Shown here: positions 3,055-28,790 of the stretch, one piece after another
How the letters are laid out: every line of letters starts with the position of its first letter
Position numbering within the stretch: the first letter of the stretch is position 1
Origin: Rhizobiaceae bacterium
Lineage (GTDB): Bacteria; Pseudomonadota; Alphaproteobacteria; Rhizobiales; Rhizobiaceae
Assembly: GCA_029233925.1 (NCBI GenBank)
Contig: JARGOX010000020.1
Span: forward strand, 1-64,000
Length of the DNA: 64,000 bases
Direction of reading: 5' to 3'
The notes under the pieces: generated by a model
What the model was told of the DNA's origin: nothing
Databases searched by the model: none
What the model saw: only the letters and a program-made list of their open reading frames with translations
Made by a program: the position numbers and the translations under genes

Positions 3055-6000
3055 TTATTGGTAAATCTTAACCATACCTGAGGGACTCACCGTCACGCGT
3101 TTCGCATCCGCTTTTTGCAGCGAACTGGGCGACATCTGAAAACCATTCAAAGTTTTTTCACGGATTCTGGCGGACGCATTGGCCTCATTGTGTTCCGCCA
3201 TGTTCAGCTTTCCCTCAGAGAATTTGTAGACGGTCAAAATCAATGGCTTGCCGTCCACTATGACCTTGACCATGTCGCCCTTGCGAATACGCATGGCCAG
3301 CGGTTGACCCGCACGCCCGGTCTGCTTTGTCCACCAATCCTTGTCGTCGCGCGCCAATTGATAGGCCTGAAAGGTTGAAACGACTTCGCCGGTCCATTTG
3401 CCTTTCGGATCGACCCAGATGTCATAACAATAGTTGCCGTCGCCCTTGTATCCCTTGTAAATTTTACCCTGCTTGTCTTCAAACGCGATGACATTCAGCT
3501 TTTCCTCGATCCGAACCTTGCGGACCGGTGGGGTCATGGCCCTTGCCGTCGCAAGAAGCGCCGATTTGAATTCCGTTCCTTTCAGACCCTGCGTGGCTTC
3601 CAGAAGCGCCATCATTGTCGGGAAATCCCGAATTTTCTGCAGGTCCGCAGGCGACTTGAAAGCCTCGCTGTCCAAAGGTTTGCGCGTTACGACGGTGCGA
3701 ACGCCCTTCCTGTCGGGCTCTTCATTCACCCCCTTTACTATTCCGTATGCGGTATCATTGTGCATCGCTCCCTGGAAACCGTGATCCGGCTTCTGACTGA
3801 TAACCACATCGCGCACTTTTTGCGCCACGTGATCGCGGAAATTCGCCCAGGGTTCGGGAATGCCGGCCAGCAAACGGGCATTGAACGCCTCCTCCTGCCG
3901 GTGCGCCTCGTCCGCAGCCGCCTTCAACATGGCGCGGTCTGTGCAGGCTATCACCACGGCGTCAATGGCATGATGGCGGTGGTCGTCGCGGTTTTTCTTT
4001 TGCGCTTCGGAAATTGGTTCATTGTGCCCGCGCAAAATGCTGTCAAGGCCCCAATGATGGCGAAGATCAGACGTCAGCCGACCCGTGATGACCCATACAT
4101 GGTTCTCACTGCCTGCATGGCCCTGCCCGCCATAGATCGCCTCGACATAGGCTTTGGCCAGGCGGGCAATATATTGGGTATCCGTCAGTTGGCGGGAAAG
4201 GAAATTTCGCTCCTCGTTCTCATAGCGTTCCATCGCGTCCGGCCCAAACCGCCATTTCTTCGAAACAGGCAGTTCGTTGGCGCGCTTGGCCAATTCACTC
4301 CAGTCATAACCCGCCGGTGAATGACCGAATGCCTCATAGGGAGATCTGTTCTGCTTGTCACGATTGGCCATGCGCGTTGCCAGAGTCTTGTTGGAAAAAC
4401 TGTCGTCCAGTGTTTTGGAGAAAGGCAGGATATGTTCAATCTCGATCTGGTCAGTAAACAGCATGGAAAGCGCGATCTGATCCCCGGAAAAAACGCAACG
4501 TTTGCCCAAAGCTTCAAGATCTTCATACAATCTCAGCTTCAGTCGGTTCTCATAGGTGTTGGCAACTCCCAGTCCCTCCAACTGCTTTGATCGTCGTTCA
4601 TTTTCAAGCTGGTTATCGCGTTGCTTTGACTCCAACTCGCTCTTTCCGCGTGCGGAAAGTGGCAAATCACGCGCCAGTTCCAGAACAATCTGCTCGGGTG
4701 TTCCAAAGCGTCCGATCAGGTCGTTGATCACGGCTCTCACCTGGTTCAACGCCACATGCACTGTCGGATTGGCCACTTTTCCATAGCGCTTTTCATCAGT
4801 GTCCTCCGCCTTGCCGCTGCCAAAGGCAACAGATCGCTCGAGGATTCTGCCGTAATAGGGAAGACCATTCTCGAAAATCTCGCCACTGCCGAACTGGCTG
4901 TGATGCAGACCAGCGGCTTTTACTGCGTCGGAATAGACGTGTACATCGGTTTCCAGATGCGGCAATAACAACGCCAAAGCCTTTTCGCTTAGATTTCCGT
5001 ATCCGTCCGGTAGCGGACAATCAGCAATTCGGATAGCCTGCTGGCGATCGAAGTCGTGTTGCTTCAACAGCCACGCAAACAAATTCTCCTCATTTTCTTC
5101 CTCGAGAAGCTGTGTCACGACCATGTCCCGGGTTGCCAGACTCAGATCAAACCAGCAACTACCCCACCGATCTTTTTGCATCAGCCTGGCAGCCGTCTCA
5201 TCGCCCTTCAGTTTGTTGCGCTTTTCGGATTCCGTGTTGAACCTGTCATAGCTGGAAAGAGCGAGCAGTTTTCTGATCTGGTCAAACGAGACATCAGCCG
5301 TCTTGTTGGTGGGGTGCAGCAAGCGATCCGCAACCGTGTCGCGTTGCTCAGGCGTTAGCGGAATTTTTGTTTCGCCGGTTCTGCCAACGCGCAGCGCATT
5401 GACTTCCTGAAATATTCTCGCACGTTGTGAGGATGGAAGCGCCTTTGGCGCACGCGGCAATTCCGGCAAGAGCGTACATCTGCCAACATCAGGCGATTTA
5501 AGCGGGTGCTGCCATTCTATGGTGTTGCGCAGCGTATCTCGCGCTTCATTTGTCAATGCGGTCGAATGATAGGCCAATTGTGATGCCCATATCTGGTCGA
5601 ACTCATCGAGAATCAATGCACGCGTCGGGTAATAGTCATATTGCCATTTCGACCCGTCGCCGGACTTGCGAACGCGTGCCAGCGGCTGCGGCAGGCCGGC
5701 TCCCCTTGCGGCTGTCTGATTGTGCCGGAGAGTTTCGAGCCGCGGCTTTCCGAACAACTCGCCAAGGGTACGCGCGCCTTCAGCTTCCAATCTATCCCTG
5801 GTGCGCCGGGTTGCGTCATGCACTTTGCCGCTCTCGTTGTCGCCACGGTCGGTCTTTCGATTAGACTTGAAACCGCGCCGCTGGTGCAAATGAAAAATCA
5901 CCCGGCCAAGCTGGTGGAGGGTTATCGGCTCCTGCAGCGCGCGTGCACGCAGGATCCATGGGTCACTGTGCGTCAGGTCCATGCCTTTGCTGCCTTCCAG

Positions 6001-6288
6001 GGCCTTTCTCTCCACTTCTGTATCGGGCATCAGCCCGTATTGAATGAGTTGGCGCATAAGCCGGTCCCGGCGGCGAAGATAGCGGTCCCTGTTTCTTCTG
6101 GCGCCGCGCGGTTCGCGGCGTTTGACGGCGTTGGACTGCTTGTCTTTCGGATTACGGCCATCAGAGAATATCCGGGCGCCGCAGTCGATCAACCCGACAG
6201 GCGTCCATGCCTTATCGACCTGAGCCAGCTCAAGTGCAGCCCACCCAAGAGAATTCGTACCGAGATCAATTCCTAACCGCCATTTCAT
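3055..6288 (-). CDS. cas9: CRISPR effector nuclease Cas9 (type II-C)
   Basis: This is an RNA-guided DNA endonuclease of 1077 residues, typical of compact II-C Cas9 proteins. All nuclease motifs are intact: RuvC-I with Asp8 in MKWRLGIDLGTNSLGW, an arginine-rich bridge helix at about 55-80, RuvC-II with Glu537 in IVLELARD, HNH with His619 in IEHILPFSK, and RuvC-III with His772-His773 and Asp776 in HHAIDAVVIACTD. The C-terminal third should hold the wedge and PAM-interacting region. I chose the ATG at 6288 because GGAGG sits 7 bases upstream; an in-frame start 5 codons earlier lacks that spacing. A predicted promoter lies at 6455-6482. A possible self-targeting RNA maps just above it. Confidence 0.98.
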   Translation of the reverse strand: MKWRLGIDLGTNSLGWAALELAQVDKAWTPVGLIDCGARIFSDGRNPKDKQSNAVKRREPRGARRNRDRYLRRRDRLMRQLIQYGLMPDTEVERKALEGSKGMDLTHSDPWILRARALQEPITLHQLGRVIFHLHQRRGFKSNRKTDRGDNESGKVHDATRRTRDRLEAEGARTLGELFGKPRLETLRHNQTAARGAGLPQPLARVRKSGDGSKWQYDYYPTRALILDEFDQIWASQLAYHSTALTNEARDTLRNTIEWQHPLKSPDVGRCTLLPELPRAPKALPSSQRARIFQEVNALRVGRTGETKIPLTPEQRDTVADRLLHPTNKTADVSFDQIRKLLALSSYDRFNTESEKRNKLKGDETAARLMQKDRWGSCWFDLSLATRDMVVTQLLEEENEENLFAWLLKQHDFDRQQAIRIADCPLPDGYGNLSEKALALLLPHLETDVHVYSDAVKAAGLHHSQFGSGEIFENGLPYYGRILERSVAFGSGKAEDTDEKRYGKVANPTVHVALNQVRAVINDLIGRFGTPEQIVLELARDLPLSARGKSELESKQRDNQLENERRSKQLEGLGVANTYENRLKLRLYEDLEALGKRCVFSGDQIALSMLFTDQIEIEHILPFSKTLDDSFSNKTLATRMANRDKQNRSPYEAFGHSPAGYDWSELAKRANELPVSKKWRFGPDAMERYENEERNFLSRQLTDTQYIARLAKAYVEAIYGGQGHAGSENHVWVITGRLTSDLRHHWGLDSILRGHNEPISEAQKKNRDDHRHHAIDAVVIACTDRAMLKAAADEAHRQEEAFNARLLAGIPEPWANFRDHVAQKVRDVVISQKPDHGFQGAMHNDTAYGIVKGVNEEPDRKGVRTVVTRKPLDSEAFKSPADLQKIRDFPTMMALLEATQGLKGTEFKSALLATARAMTPPVRKVRIEEKLNVIAFEDKQGKIYKGYKGDGNYCYDIWVDPKGKWTGEVVSTFQAYQLARDDKDWWTKQTGRAGQPLAMRIRKGDMVKVIVDGKPLILTVYKFSEGKLNMAEHNEANASARIREKTLNGFQMSPSSLQKADAKRVTVSPSGMVKIYQ

Positions 6289-6454
6289 GACAGGCCTCCA
6301 CATCGGATGGAAAATCCCGGCCTCCAGTGGTTTGGACCCACTGGCCCGGGGGGTGACGCCCTGCTATAACTCGCCTGTCCGGCAAGACAGAATGAAGAAA
6401 ATCCATCACTGGGGGTTGTGTCCCAAGAACGATTCGTAGATTGACGCACCTGAC

Positions 6455-6482
6455 ACGTTACGCGAGATTTAGACCTTGTCAA
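6455..6482 (-). promoter_or_regulatory. Predicted cas9 promoter
   Basis: On the minus strand TTGACA (6482-6477) is followed after 16 bases by TAACGT (6460-6455), giving a start site about 160 bases before the cas9 ATG. CTTGAC is the usual alphaproteobacterial -35. This is prediction only. The 11-bp self-match at 6495-6505 lies 13 bases above the -35 box. Confidence 0.5.
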
Positions 6483-6494
6483 GATTGTGCTTCC

Positions 6495-6505
6495 TAAGCC
6501 CCATC
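6495..6505 (-). promoter_or_regulatory. 11-bp putative Cas9 self-target above the cas9 promoter
   Basis: The plus strand reads TAAGCCCCATC, the exact reverse complement of GATGGGGCTTA at 6584-6594, which are the last 11 bases before the degenerate repeat. If that RNA acts as a guide, these bases are its seed and the match stops at position 11. The minus-strand flank on the PAM side is GGAAGCAC. The site sits between the predicted cas9 -35 (6477-6482) and the predicted divergent promoter at 6519-6547. The pair could instead simply form a hairpin with an approximately 78-base loop. Confidence 0.5.
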
Positions 6506-6518
6506 CTTATGATAGGAA

Positions 6519-6547
6519 TTGACGTATTTAGGTTTATTCGCTAACGA
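6519..6547 (+). promoter_or_regulatory. Predicted promoter of the crRNA-like/tracr transcript
   Basis: TTGACG (6519-6524), a 17-base spacer and TAACGA (6542-6547) would start a plus-strand RNA near 6554. It is back to back with the predicted cas9 promoter and similar in both boxes. The RNA would carry about 40 bases before the degenerate repeat. This is predicted by eye. Confidence 0.4.
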
Positions 6548-6553
6548 TGAATT

Positions 6554-6630
6554 GAGAAGCACTGTTATCCCATTCGTTGCGGTGATGGGGCTTAGTTGCG
6601 GTTGGCCTGTCTTTTCCAAAGTGTTTTCAA
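6554..6630 (+). ncRNA. crRNA-like unit: guide segment plus degenerate repeat (scaRNA/tracr-L-like candidate)
   Basis: Bases 6595-6630 match the CRISPR repeat at 29 of 36 positions in the same orientation as the array. The first 15 bases are perfect, and changes accumulate towards the 3' end, where the TACAAC -10-like element is lost. The preceding 30-40 bases would be a guide. Its last 11 bases match the site at 6495-6505 above the cas9 promoter, then complementarity ends. Type II systems in Streptococcus (tracr-L) and Francisella (scaRNA) use partial guides to repress transcription without cutting. Here the degenerate repeat lies about 100 bases upstream of the tracrRNA on the same strand, so one long transcript could fold into a natural single guide. 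The function is inferred. Confidence 0.5.
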
Positions 6631-6688
6631 GGGCGTTTGGTCTAAGCATATGCAAAAAGTACTGCTTGGGAAACCTGTTGAAAGGAAC

Positions 6689-6717
6689 TTGAGCGCAGCA
6701 TGCTATTTTGCTAGAGT
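6689..6717 (+). promoter_or_regulatory. Predicted tracrRNA promoter
   Basis: TTGAGC (6689-6694), a 17-base spacer and TAGAGT (6712-6717) place transcription start near 6724, six bases before the anti-repeat. This fits a short tracrRNA made independently of any longer upstream transcript. Confidence 0.45.
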
Positions 6718-6723
6718 TTAACC

Positions 6724-6829
6724 AAGCATTTGTAGCACTCTGGAAAAGTCAGGCTTTCCGTTAACAAGACGAAAGTCACAAAATGCTTCATGAGCGGCTT
6801 GTTTTCGGACAAGTCGCTCATTTGCTTTT
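6724..6829 (+). ncRNA. tracrRNA
   Basis: The anti-repeat at 6730-6754 is 25 bases perfectly complementary to the 3' two-thirds of the repeat. After a small internal loop, CCGTTAAC (6759-6766) pairs with the repeat's first bases GTTGCGG through a one-base bulge and a G-U pair, which makes the spacer-proximal lower stem. Next come a short GAC-GAAA-GTC hairpin (6768-6777) and a strong terminator: a 12-bp stem (6790-6801 with 6810-6821, one G-U pair) followed by TTGCTTTT. This order of anti-repeat, small hairpin and terminator hairpin is the normal tracrRNA plan. It lies upstream of cas9 on the opposite strand. Confidence 0.88.
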
Positions 6830-6952
6830 CGCTTCAGATGCGGAGAGAATTTCGATGTCGCTTTATTGAAATCCTTTTGTTCCTGCAATGATCTACACTT
6901 GATGTTATTCAGTCGATATTCTGGCTAAAAAATCCGGTACGATCATGCGTCG

Positions 6953-7207
6953 GTGCAACCTAAAACAAAATGGTTCGATGCAAATGCGCACGTCTTGCAG
7001 GCAAGCAGCAGTGCCCCCGGATTCGACGAAGACCCGATCAACATCTCAACCGTCATGGCCGGCCAGAAGCTCGGCATCAAGGAGGTGGACGACGGAATAT
7101 GGTTGGTGTCATTTATGAACTATGATCTGGGATATATCGACCTGGAGCAAAAAACATTGCAAACTATCGACAACCCGTTCGGCACGAGGTTGTCACCTAT
7201 GTCTTAG
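6953..7207 (+). pseudogene. C-terminal relic of an IS481-like transposase
   Basis: The last ~55 codons (for example STVMAGQKLGIKEVDDGIW, then SFMNYDLGYIDLEQ and DNPFGTRLSPMS at the end) resemble the conserved C-terminus of IS481-family DDE transposases. The N-terminal DNA-binding and DDE catalytic parts are absent. Upstream, the open frame has no recognisable transposase sequence and only a weak GTG start. It is a decayed insertion between the CRISPR locus and tRNA-Met and marks past mobile-element activity at this junction. The family call is from memory of the C-terminal motif. Confidence 0.65.
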
Positions 7208-7251
7208 GTACGTTGTGTTACCCATGTCTCCGGGTCGGACCTGGAAAAATC

Positions 7252-7328
7252 TGGTAGCGGGAGAGGGACTCGAACCCCCGACACGCGGATTATGATTCCG
7301 CTGCTCTAACCACCTGAGCTACCCCGCC
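7252..7328 (-). tRNA. tRNA-Met (CAT), CCA encoded
   Basis: On the minus strand the sequence folds as a full cloverleaf of 77 bases including the genomic CCA (7254-7252). The acceptor stem is GGCGGGG, the anticodon arm is GCGGA-ATCATAA-TCCGC with anticodon CAT, and the T arm contains GTTCGAGTC. The anticodon stem is like alphaproteobacterial elongator tRNA-Met. A lysidine-modified tRNA-Ile2 would carry the same anticodon but seems less likely. Confidence 0.93.
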
Positions 7329-27558: not shown

Positions 27559-28734
27559 TCAGGCTGACGCAGCAAGCGTCGCGCGCTGTTGCTGGAAAGC
27601 CCATTCGAGCCATGGCATCAGGGCTTCAAGGTCCGAGGCCTCGACGGTTGCACCCGTCCATATGCGCAGACCTGCAGGGGCGTCACGATAGGCGCCGATA
27701 TCAAAGGCAATGCCTGCCTTGTCCAGAAGCGCCACCATGCCCTTGGCAAAGCTGGCCTGCGCATCGGCGGCAAGCGCCGCAATCTCGGGATCAACAATCT
27801 TCAGGCAAACCGATGTGTTGGAGCGTGTTGCAACATCGCTGGCAAGAAAATCAATCCATTCAGCCTGTTCGACAAAACGACTGATGATCGCAGCATTGCT
27901 GTCGGCCCTGTGCACCAGCGCATCCAGCCCACCGATGTTCTCGGCCCAGGCAAGCGCATCAAGATAATCTTCGACACACAGCATGGAAGGTGTGTTGATT
28001 GTGGCGCCCTCAAAGATGTCCTCAATCAGCTTGCCGCCCTTGGTCATGCGGAAAATCTTCGGCAGCGGCCAGGATGGTGTGTAGCTTTCCAGCCGTTCAA
28101 CGGCGCGCGGGCTCAAGATGAGCATTCCGTGGCCACCCTCACCGCCCAGCACCTTTTGCCAGGAGAAGGTAACAACATCCAGCTTGTCAAACGCCAGTTC
28201 CTGAGCAAATGCCGCCGATGTGGCGTCGCATATGGTCAGGCCTTGGCGGTCTGCCGGGATAAAGTCGCCATTGGGCACACGCACACCTGATGTGGTGCCG
28301 TTCCAGGTAAAGACGACATCGCGGTCAAATTCGATTTTTGATAGGTCCGGCAATAGTCCGTAGTCGGCTTCCAGAACTTTGACATCGTCGAGCTTCAGCT
28401 GTTTGACAACATCCGATACCCATCCGGCGCCAAAGGATTCCCAGGAAACCATGTGCACACCGCGTTGGCCAAGCATTGACCACAACGCCATTTCCACAGC
28501 GCCGGTATCGGAGGCCGGCACGATGCCGATACGATAACCATCAGGCACGCCAAGCAGCGACCGGGTCTGATCTATTGCCTGTTTGAGTTTTGCCTTGCCG
28601 ATTTTTGCCCGGTGAGAGCGCCCGAGAGCGGCATCGTTCAGGGCACCTGGCGTCCAACCGGGACGCTTGGTGCAAGGACCAGAAGAGAAACGAGGATTTG
28701 CCGGACGCATGTCCGGTTGGGTATTTTTCAACAT
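27559..28734 (-). CDS. serC: Phosphoserine aminotransferase SerC
   Basis: SerC is a PLP enzyme converting 3-phosphohydroxypyruvate to phosphoserine. The 391-residue protein begins [20 protein letters not shown] and has the PLP lysine in [19 protein letters not shown]. The ATG at 28734 has GGAAGG ten bases upstream and matches the family start. A hairpin leader lies directly before it. It is the first gene of the serC-serA operon. Confidence 0.96.
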
Positions 28735-28790
28735 GTGGCTATCCTTCCAGATAGTGGCCCCTCGTTGGGGAGGGGTGTCCCACAGCGGCA
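28735..28790 (-). promoter_or_regulatory. serC leader hairpin (serC RNA-motif candidate)
   Basis: In the 5' leader, CCCCTC and GAGGGG (28758-28763 with 28770-28775) form a 6-bp GC-rich stem with a six-base loop, followed by GGAAGGATAGCCAC and the serC ATG. A short conserved hairpin, the serC motif, has been described at this position in alphaproteobacteria; its ligand is not established. Assignment rests on position and shape only. Confidence 0.5.

Follow-up and report, generated by a model that had tools for sequence, protein, structure and literature searches.

A type II-C CRISPR-Cas locus appears to encode a regulator of its own effector. Cas9 is very probably directed to the cas9 promoter by a long tracrRNA that doubles as a natural single guide, with 11 guide nucleotides in its 5' part, and would repress transcription there. 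Arguing for this autorepression are the anatomy of the unit, the match of guide and target, the recurrence of the arrangement in other cas9 loci, its register at the repeat junction, a common flank and the co-variation of guide and target, all read directly from the DNA sequence.

The window, by which we mean the whole 64,000-nt stretch of DNA that was analysed, is the start of a contig in a host genome of 6.1 Mb. Its CRISPR operon runs on the minus strand in the order cas9-cas1-cas2 and comprises a cas9 open reading frame of 1082 aa (3055-6303; TIGR01865, with RuvC_III and HNH_4 domains), a type II cas1 (2061-2990; TIGR03639) and cas2 (1717-2064; TIGR01573). The true cas9 start is likely MKWRLG at 6288, judging by a GGAGG just upstream. 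Directly after cas2 comes an array (90-1643) of 24 identical 36-nt repeats, GTTGCGGTTGGCCTGACTTTTCCAGAGTGCTACAAC, and 23 spacers, whose sense strand is taken as plus because of the orientation of the tracrRNA. The locus thus has the cas9, type II cas1, cas2 and tracrRNA of type II-C, with neither csn2 nor cas4 within the operon. The left edge of the window is the contig end, and the 89 bases before the first repeat (1-89) are not repeat-like, so the array may end there. Rfam matches in the window were a serC leader (28734-28785, minus strand) and a tRNA (7255-7328, minus strand), the latter just past the tracrRNA region.

Anatomy of the unit upstream of cas9

The sequence-only reading had reported a degenerate repeat in the same orientation as the array, and a repeat search of the window bore this out: positions 6595-6630 (plus strand) match the array repeat at 29 of 36 bases, the best plus-strand match outside the array in the 64 kb, with runners-up at 20/36. 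On the minus strand the best match, also 29/36 (runner-up 21/36), is the tracrRNA anti-repeat (6729-6764). Directly 5' of the degenerate repeat stands the 11-nt guide GATGGGGCTTA (6584-6594, plus strand), and the target proposed for it at 6495-6505, which reads GATGGGGCTTA on the minus strand, is indeed its exact reverse complement. The inverted match amounts to 12 bp when the first G of the repeat is counted (6494-6505 with 6584-6595). Past the 11 bases complementarity stops, as had been claimed, with agreement at 4 of the next 29 positions (15 of 40 overall). By arithmetic, the chance of an exact 11-mer match at one fixed anchor is about 4e-4 per 760 nt, counting both strands. The host genome contains two sites with GATGGGGCTTA+NG at zero mismatches. 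The second lies within an open reading frame on another contig and has the flank CGATTT, without a purine at position 5; in this exact-match search of the host genome the window's own target was the one site whose flank fits.

On the minus strand the target adjoins a candidate PAM side, GGAAGCAC (6487-6494). Target and PAM together (6487-6505) lie between two predicted -35 boxes, the PAM end being 4 bp from that of cas9. The window's promoters are consensus predictions, absent from a stricter scan, and plausible only. Of the two that had been placed on either side of the target, the cas9 promoter (6455-6482, minus strand; -35 TTGACA at 6482-6477, 16-bp spacing, -10 TAACGT at 6460-6455) was reproduced, whereas that of the long tracrRNA (6519-6547, plus strand; TTGACG-17-TAACGA) was recovered with the same -35 and a different -10. 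A possible short-tracrRNA promoter (6678-6706, plus strand; TTGAAA at 6678, spacing 17, TGCTAT at 6701) is likewise recognised by consensus only.

The unit precedes the anti-repeat by 98 nt and has the orientation of the tracrRNA. Between them is a linker (6631-6728) that is predicted to fold on itself; the anti-repeat (6729-6765) runs into a conserved motif, GTTAACAAG (6760-6768), and is followed by a terminator hairpin of 14 pairs (6790-6821), all on the plus strand. A scan of 6250-7250 gave a single terminator-like site, located after the anti-repeat, and none between unit and anti-repeat (6630-6729). In predicted folds the degenerate repeat acts as a crRNA-like handle, forming a duplex with the anti-repeat in cis (z -6.2 in the fold of 6554-6840 and -7.5 in that of 6584-6821). 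Seven of the 11 guide bases are paired in both of these long folds, to the 5' leader in the former and to the tail in the latter, and the guide is unpaired when only the stretch from guide to anti-repeat is folded. Rfam returned no family for the long-tracrRNA candidate at gathering cut-offs. The earlier proposal of a crRNA-like RNA in cis upstream of the tracrRNA holds as to position, but the unit is better described as the 5' part of a long tracrRNA than as a separate crRNA, because the tracrRNA comes next on the same strand. Modelled pairing suggests a natural single-guide RNA, resembling tracr-L, as the most likely product of unit and anti-repeat together.

Recurrence, flank and co-variation in other cas9 loci

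Cas9 relatives were gathered from a genome contig search (9 loci), from genomes with a Cas9 match in the family (22/199), order (44/397) and class (61/385), from narrower searches and from plasmids (46 records, 8 fetched). Wide-flank regions were taken except from the weakest and fragmentary Cas9 matches. The final set holds 120 cas9-upstream regions of at most 760 nt each, one duplicate (L202 = L033) having been dropped from 121; near-identical pairs such as L209/L210 and L161/L162 were retained. Five loci from the narrower searches were analysed (L193, L197, L198, L202 and L203), and the narrower genome searches yielded one clear additional case, L197. An inverted-only search missed most cases; later counts cover both strands.

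The tracrRNA motif GTTAACAAG, with at most one mismatch, occurs in 95 of the 120 regions. Repeat-like starts, defined as at least 10/13 and 35-200 nt upstream of this motif, number 29, a few loci contributing more than one. For 12 of these 29, in 12 loci, the guide matches a site in the region at 11/12 or better, against 0.59 expected, and for 9 of the 29 the site also has a flank fitting NGNNRY (expected 0.047). The expectations derive from all 83,861 positions of the 120 regions, at which 2.0% reach at least 11/12 and 0.16% do so with NGNNRY. Other repeat cut-offs gave 14/81 (at least 9), 11/16 (at least 11) and 5/8 (at least 12) at the same guide threshold, and a smaller, earlier set of regions gave 12/28. 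Because the cut-offs were set after the first cases were known and those same loci supplied the flank motif, the flank-free 12/29 is the cleaner number. Control guides from array spacers (72 loci) reached 11/12 or better in 15 of 1444 cases, and in 2 of 1444 with the flank. The match is also in register with the repeat: when the guide end was shifted from -8 to +8, matches with the flank peaked at offset 0, with 9, against 0 or 1 at every other offset. Disregarding the flank, there were 12 at 0, 12 at +1, 8 at +2, 4 at -1 and 0-2 elsewhere; the count at +1 is expected wherever the flank and the repeat start with the same base.

Seven of the 12 loci (window, L047, L088, L090, L091, L098 and L197) have an uninterrupted match of exactly 11 nt; in L108 it measures 12 nt and in L054 15 nt, and in L052, L164 and L178 a single mismatch falls within 12. 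A run of fewer than 11 can pass the 11/12 cut-off only when a single mismatch makes up the count, and L038 and L103, with runs of 10, fall outside it. These lengths are a clear sign of a guide match capped near 11 nt, not 30 nt as in array spacers. Guide and target are in direct orientation in 8 of the 12 matches. In L054, L098, L100 and L197 the distance from unit to target is about 150-230 nt, and the target is found at the estimated cas9 start. L038, whose Cas9 is 65.6% identical to that of the window, has the same layout and a guide of its own, CAATGTCTTA, with an exact complement about 69 nt upstream and the flank GGGGGC. Weak or odd cases (L042, L045, L092, L110, L165, L173 and L193) were left uncounted. 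The eight plasmid II-C loci (L207-L214, from Azospirillum, Novosphingobium, Pseudosulfitobacter (two), Limnohabitans, Bosea, Nitrobacter and Sphingobium) showed no repeat-like unit by eye in their first 480 nt and no match in the scan of the final set.

Across the 12 matches the flanks have G at position 2 (p 2e-6), a purine at 3, a purine at 5 and a pyrimidine at 6, each in 11/12; the exceptions are L047 and L098, without RY at 5-6, and L178, without G at 2. The window's GGAAGC fits this NGNNRY consensus. It also resembles the measured PAM of DfCas9, a II-C enzyme of Defluviimonas, which is NNRNAY (PMC7708072), except at position 5, where the window has G for A. The PAM side put forward in the sequence-only reading, GGAAGCAC, accords with the flank consensus of the other loci. 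Protospacers of the window's array were sought in phages (E limit 1) and plasmids (0.1), and for one spacer in viral contigs, and none was found; the arrays of L088 and L050 gave no protospacer match in phages. The L088 array matched one Sphingobium plasmid, apparently at that plasmid's own CRISPR array beside cas genes. With the L089 array, 19 phage records matched, most of the 15 listed at one query stretch with E 0.4. An L089 spacer matched a phage ORF (E 0.03, two mismatches) with the flank GACCATCG, which has A-T at 5-6 and no G at 2.

Guide and target co-vary in related II-C loci, in direct as well as inverted orientation, and mere upkeep of a hairpin would not produce this pattern. In L103 and L108, whose Cas9 proteins are 78.3% identical, the upstream regions align, and guide and target stand at homologous places in direct orientation. 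Five of the 10 positions distinguish the two guides, ATTGTGAGTT and ATTACTGGTA; the target mirrors every one of these differences, and the flanks keep G at 2, a purine at 5 and a pyrimidine at 6. Pairs among L088, L090 and L091 show 3 to 5 guide differences over 11 positions, and window and L038 show 6, in each case with as many target differences, the sites not being position-aligned. In 15 hand-picked loci the match of a guide to its own target averages 10.7/11, and to those of other loci 3.9/11 with a maximum of 8. These loci are the 12 at 11/12 or better, L038 and L103 (10/12 with flank), and L100, which has an 11/12 match and a tracrRNA motif too divergent for the filter. Since direct repeats cannot form a hairpin, pairing within the RNA does not explain the co-variation, and the joint change of guide and target points to a real self-control circuit.

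A candidate autorepression circuit and its alternatives

The idea that a partial guide aims Cas9 at its own promoter is thus supported, as a sequence-based prediction, and generalised by recurrence, register, flank and co-variation. In the circuit that we infer, transcription from about 6554 to 6821 would yield a long tracrRNA consisting of the 11-nt guide, degenerate repeat, linker, anti-repeat and tracrRNA tail. Loaded with this RNA, Cas9 would recognise GATGGGGCTTA with the flank GGAAGC (6505-6489), a site that has the predicted -35 boxes of two divergent promoters, for cas9 and for the long tracrRNA, on its two sides. Pairing limited to 11 seed-side bases should let Cas9 bind there and not cut. 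The bound protein would block transcription of cas9, with the downstream cas1 and cas2, and possibly also transcription of the guide RNA itself; such negative feedback would set the level of Cas9. A wider proposal is possible and is offered tentatively: in type II-C systems of many Alphaproteobacteria the unit may be a convergent, fast-changing Cas9 autoregulator whose guide is capped at 11 nt by selection for binding without cutting, and the window's version may repress both cas9 and its own guide RNA and read the Cas9 that is free of crRNA or anti-CRISPR.

The paired 11-bp motifs might instead be operators for a protein at the cas9 and tracrRNA promoters, or the arms of a hairpin, with no role for Cas9. 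The window would permit this, its arms being inverted, 78 bp apart and both near predicted promoters. However, the shift control places the end of the second copy where the degenerate repeat starts, the motif varies by locus to the extent of the low cross-match given above, and the target copy bears an NGNNRY-like flank. The direct matches, which are the majority, cannot pair, and one of them co-varies. We rejected a local hairpin or operator on the direct-orientation co-variation and the register at the repeat junction, and consider this explanation quite improbable.

Very unlikely, too, is that the element chiefly controls the long-tracrRNA promoter or genes in trans, with a secondary effect on cas9. 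The target does have a predicted -35 box on either side, that of the long RNA (6519) being 13 bp away, and the site of a fused guide in L165 stands upstream of the guide itself, away from cas9. Against this reading, the targets of the four loci named above are at the estimated cas9 start, and the only other exact site followed by NG in the host genome has an unsuitable flank. A third possibility is that the degenerate repeat is left over from duplication of a repeat and that the 11-nt match arose by chance; in its favour, repeat-like starts with no good match are common (17/29). As an explanation of the recurrence, this is contradicted by the excess of matches over expectation, the array-spacer control and the co-variation, and it is hardly credible.

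If Cas9 does repress its own gene through this unit, intrinsic autorepression extends from II-A to II-C, with a co-variation that is directly testable, and the same trick would seem to have evolved with unrelated sequences. Such a circuit would account for the repeat-like pieces that precede some tracrRNAs, lead one to expect an NGNNRY-like PAM in several Cas9 proteins not yet characterised, and make natural single-guide scaffolds available. Cloning these loci with their native upstream DNA may then leave Cas9 repressed.

Known systems and variant forms

The tracr-L of type II-A Streptococcus pyogenes, reportedly the work of Workman et al. 2021, has a guide of 11 nt. It is described as repressing Pcas as a natural single guide (PMC11417352, PMC8730458), and a review gives its guide as 9 bp (PMC8730458). 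In S. mutans, mutation of the PAM at the predicted tracr-L target is reported to raise cas expression (PMC11417352). The window resembles tracr-L in its putative long and short tracrRNA forms from two promoters, which in the window are predictions, and in a crRNA-like 5' part of the tracrRNA, with guide and handle on the same strand and predicted pairing to the anti-repeat in cis, that would serve as a natural single guide. It also has a short guide that matches a cas promoter beside a PAM, the promoter being predicted and the PAM deduced by comparison. It differs in its type II-C operon, which is cas9-cas1-cas2 and not the cas9-cas1-cas2-csn2 of II-A, in its recognisable degenerate repeat, in a flank that is NGNNRY-like and not NGG, and in a guide and target that differ between sister loci. 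By analogy the element may work like tracr-L, yet outside that II-A family, and it was not filed as a member.

According to predictions by Guzina 2018, scaRNAs occur near the arrays of II-C Neisseria and Pasteurella, and II-A Listeria has an sgRNA-like unit (PMC6199352). A scaRNA is described as a separate transcript that represses another gene (PMC8730458), and according to a 2026 paper a II-C scaRNA of N. meningitidis acts on efeUOB (PMC13431127). With the scaRNA of Francisella novicida II-B, and those predicted for II-C, the window shares a lone degenerate repeat off the array, a partial guide, and Cas9 with tracrRNA. Unlike a scaRNA, the window's unit is fused to the tracrRNA, no terminator of its own having been found at 6630-6729, and would act on cas9 rather than another gene; the II-C units of Guzina lie by the array and are not fused to a tracrRNA. 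That paper's main text has no mention of autoregulation, the cas9 promoter or alphaproteobacteria (PMC6199352). A 2025 paper deals with extraneous crRNAs in II-C (PMC12080349). Among the matches listed in the open-licence literature, none concerned guide-based autoregulation of a II-C cas9.

Cas-regulating CreR RNAs are said to be due to Shmakov 2023 and Liu 2023. They are alike in that a crRNA-like RNA sends the effector to the cas promoter, in autorepression, and differ in that the effector is Cascade or Cas12a, CreR being described for types I and V-A (PMC12737573). The effector gene of the window is cas9, and its unit has one repeat, not the two that often enclose the guide of a CreR or mini-CRISPR.

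In a FastTree of 118 Cas9 proteins, midpoint-rooted and drawn without support values, carriers of the unit are spread over several separate parts. They adjoin non-carriers, as with L094 (none) and L092 (weak), whose Cas9 proteins are 90.6% identical, and in the window's own Cas9 clade the unit is present in 2 of 9 distinct loci, the window and L038. Such scatter beside loci without the unit suggests quick turnover, and guide and target appear to come, go and change quickly. L038 also contains AAGCCCCATC at about 6109-6118, where CAAGCCCCATC matches 10/11 of the window's target and the L038 guide differs; this is possibly an old target, or chance.

The unit is fused to the tracrRNA in the window, L038, L197 and others, and 10 of 12 folds give at least 9 pairs between its first 14 nt and the anti-repeat (L090 has 0 and L091 has 5). 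L052, L045 and L193 have a split, scaRNA-like form with a terminator-like hairpin after the unit and before the tracrRNA; of the three, L052 alone matches well (11/12, flank AGGAAT), at a site near the cas9 start, and the target is weak or absent in L045 and L193. L165 has a fused single-guide RNA besides a normal tracrRNA, at about 5400-5590 on the minus strand (u 454-640 of the cas9-upstream strand), in the order guide with a 12-nt match, GTTGCGAGTGGATCC, short loop, GGGTCCTCTCGTTAACAAGCC and tracrRNA-like tail with a hairpin. Its target, with the flank GCAAAC, lies about 70-80 nt upstream of the single guide, beside a large ORF that we take to resemble an error-prone DNA polymerase. In L054, L098, L173, L088 and L091 the presumed promoter of the short tracrRNA has a TTGA-type -35 that falls within the degenerate repeat or shortly after it, which looks as though one of the two elements, repeat or promoter, had arisen from the other.
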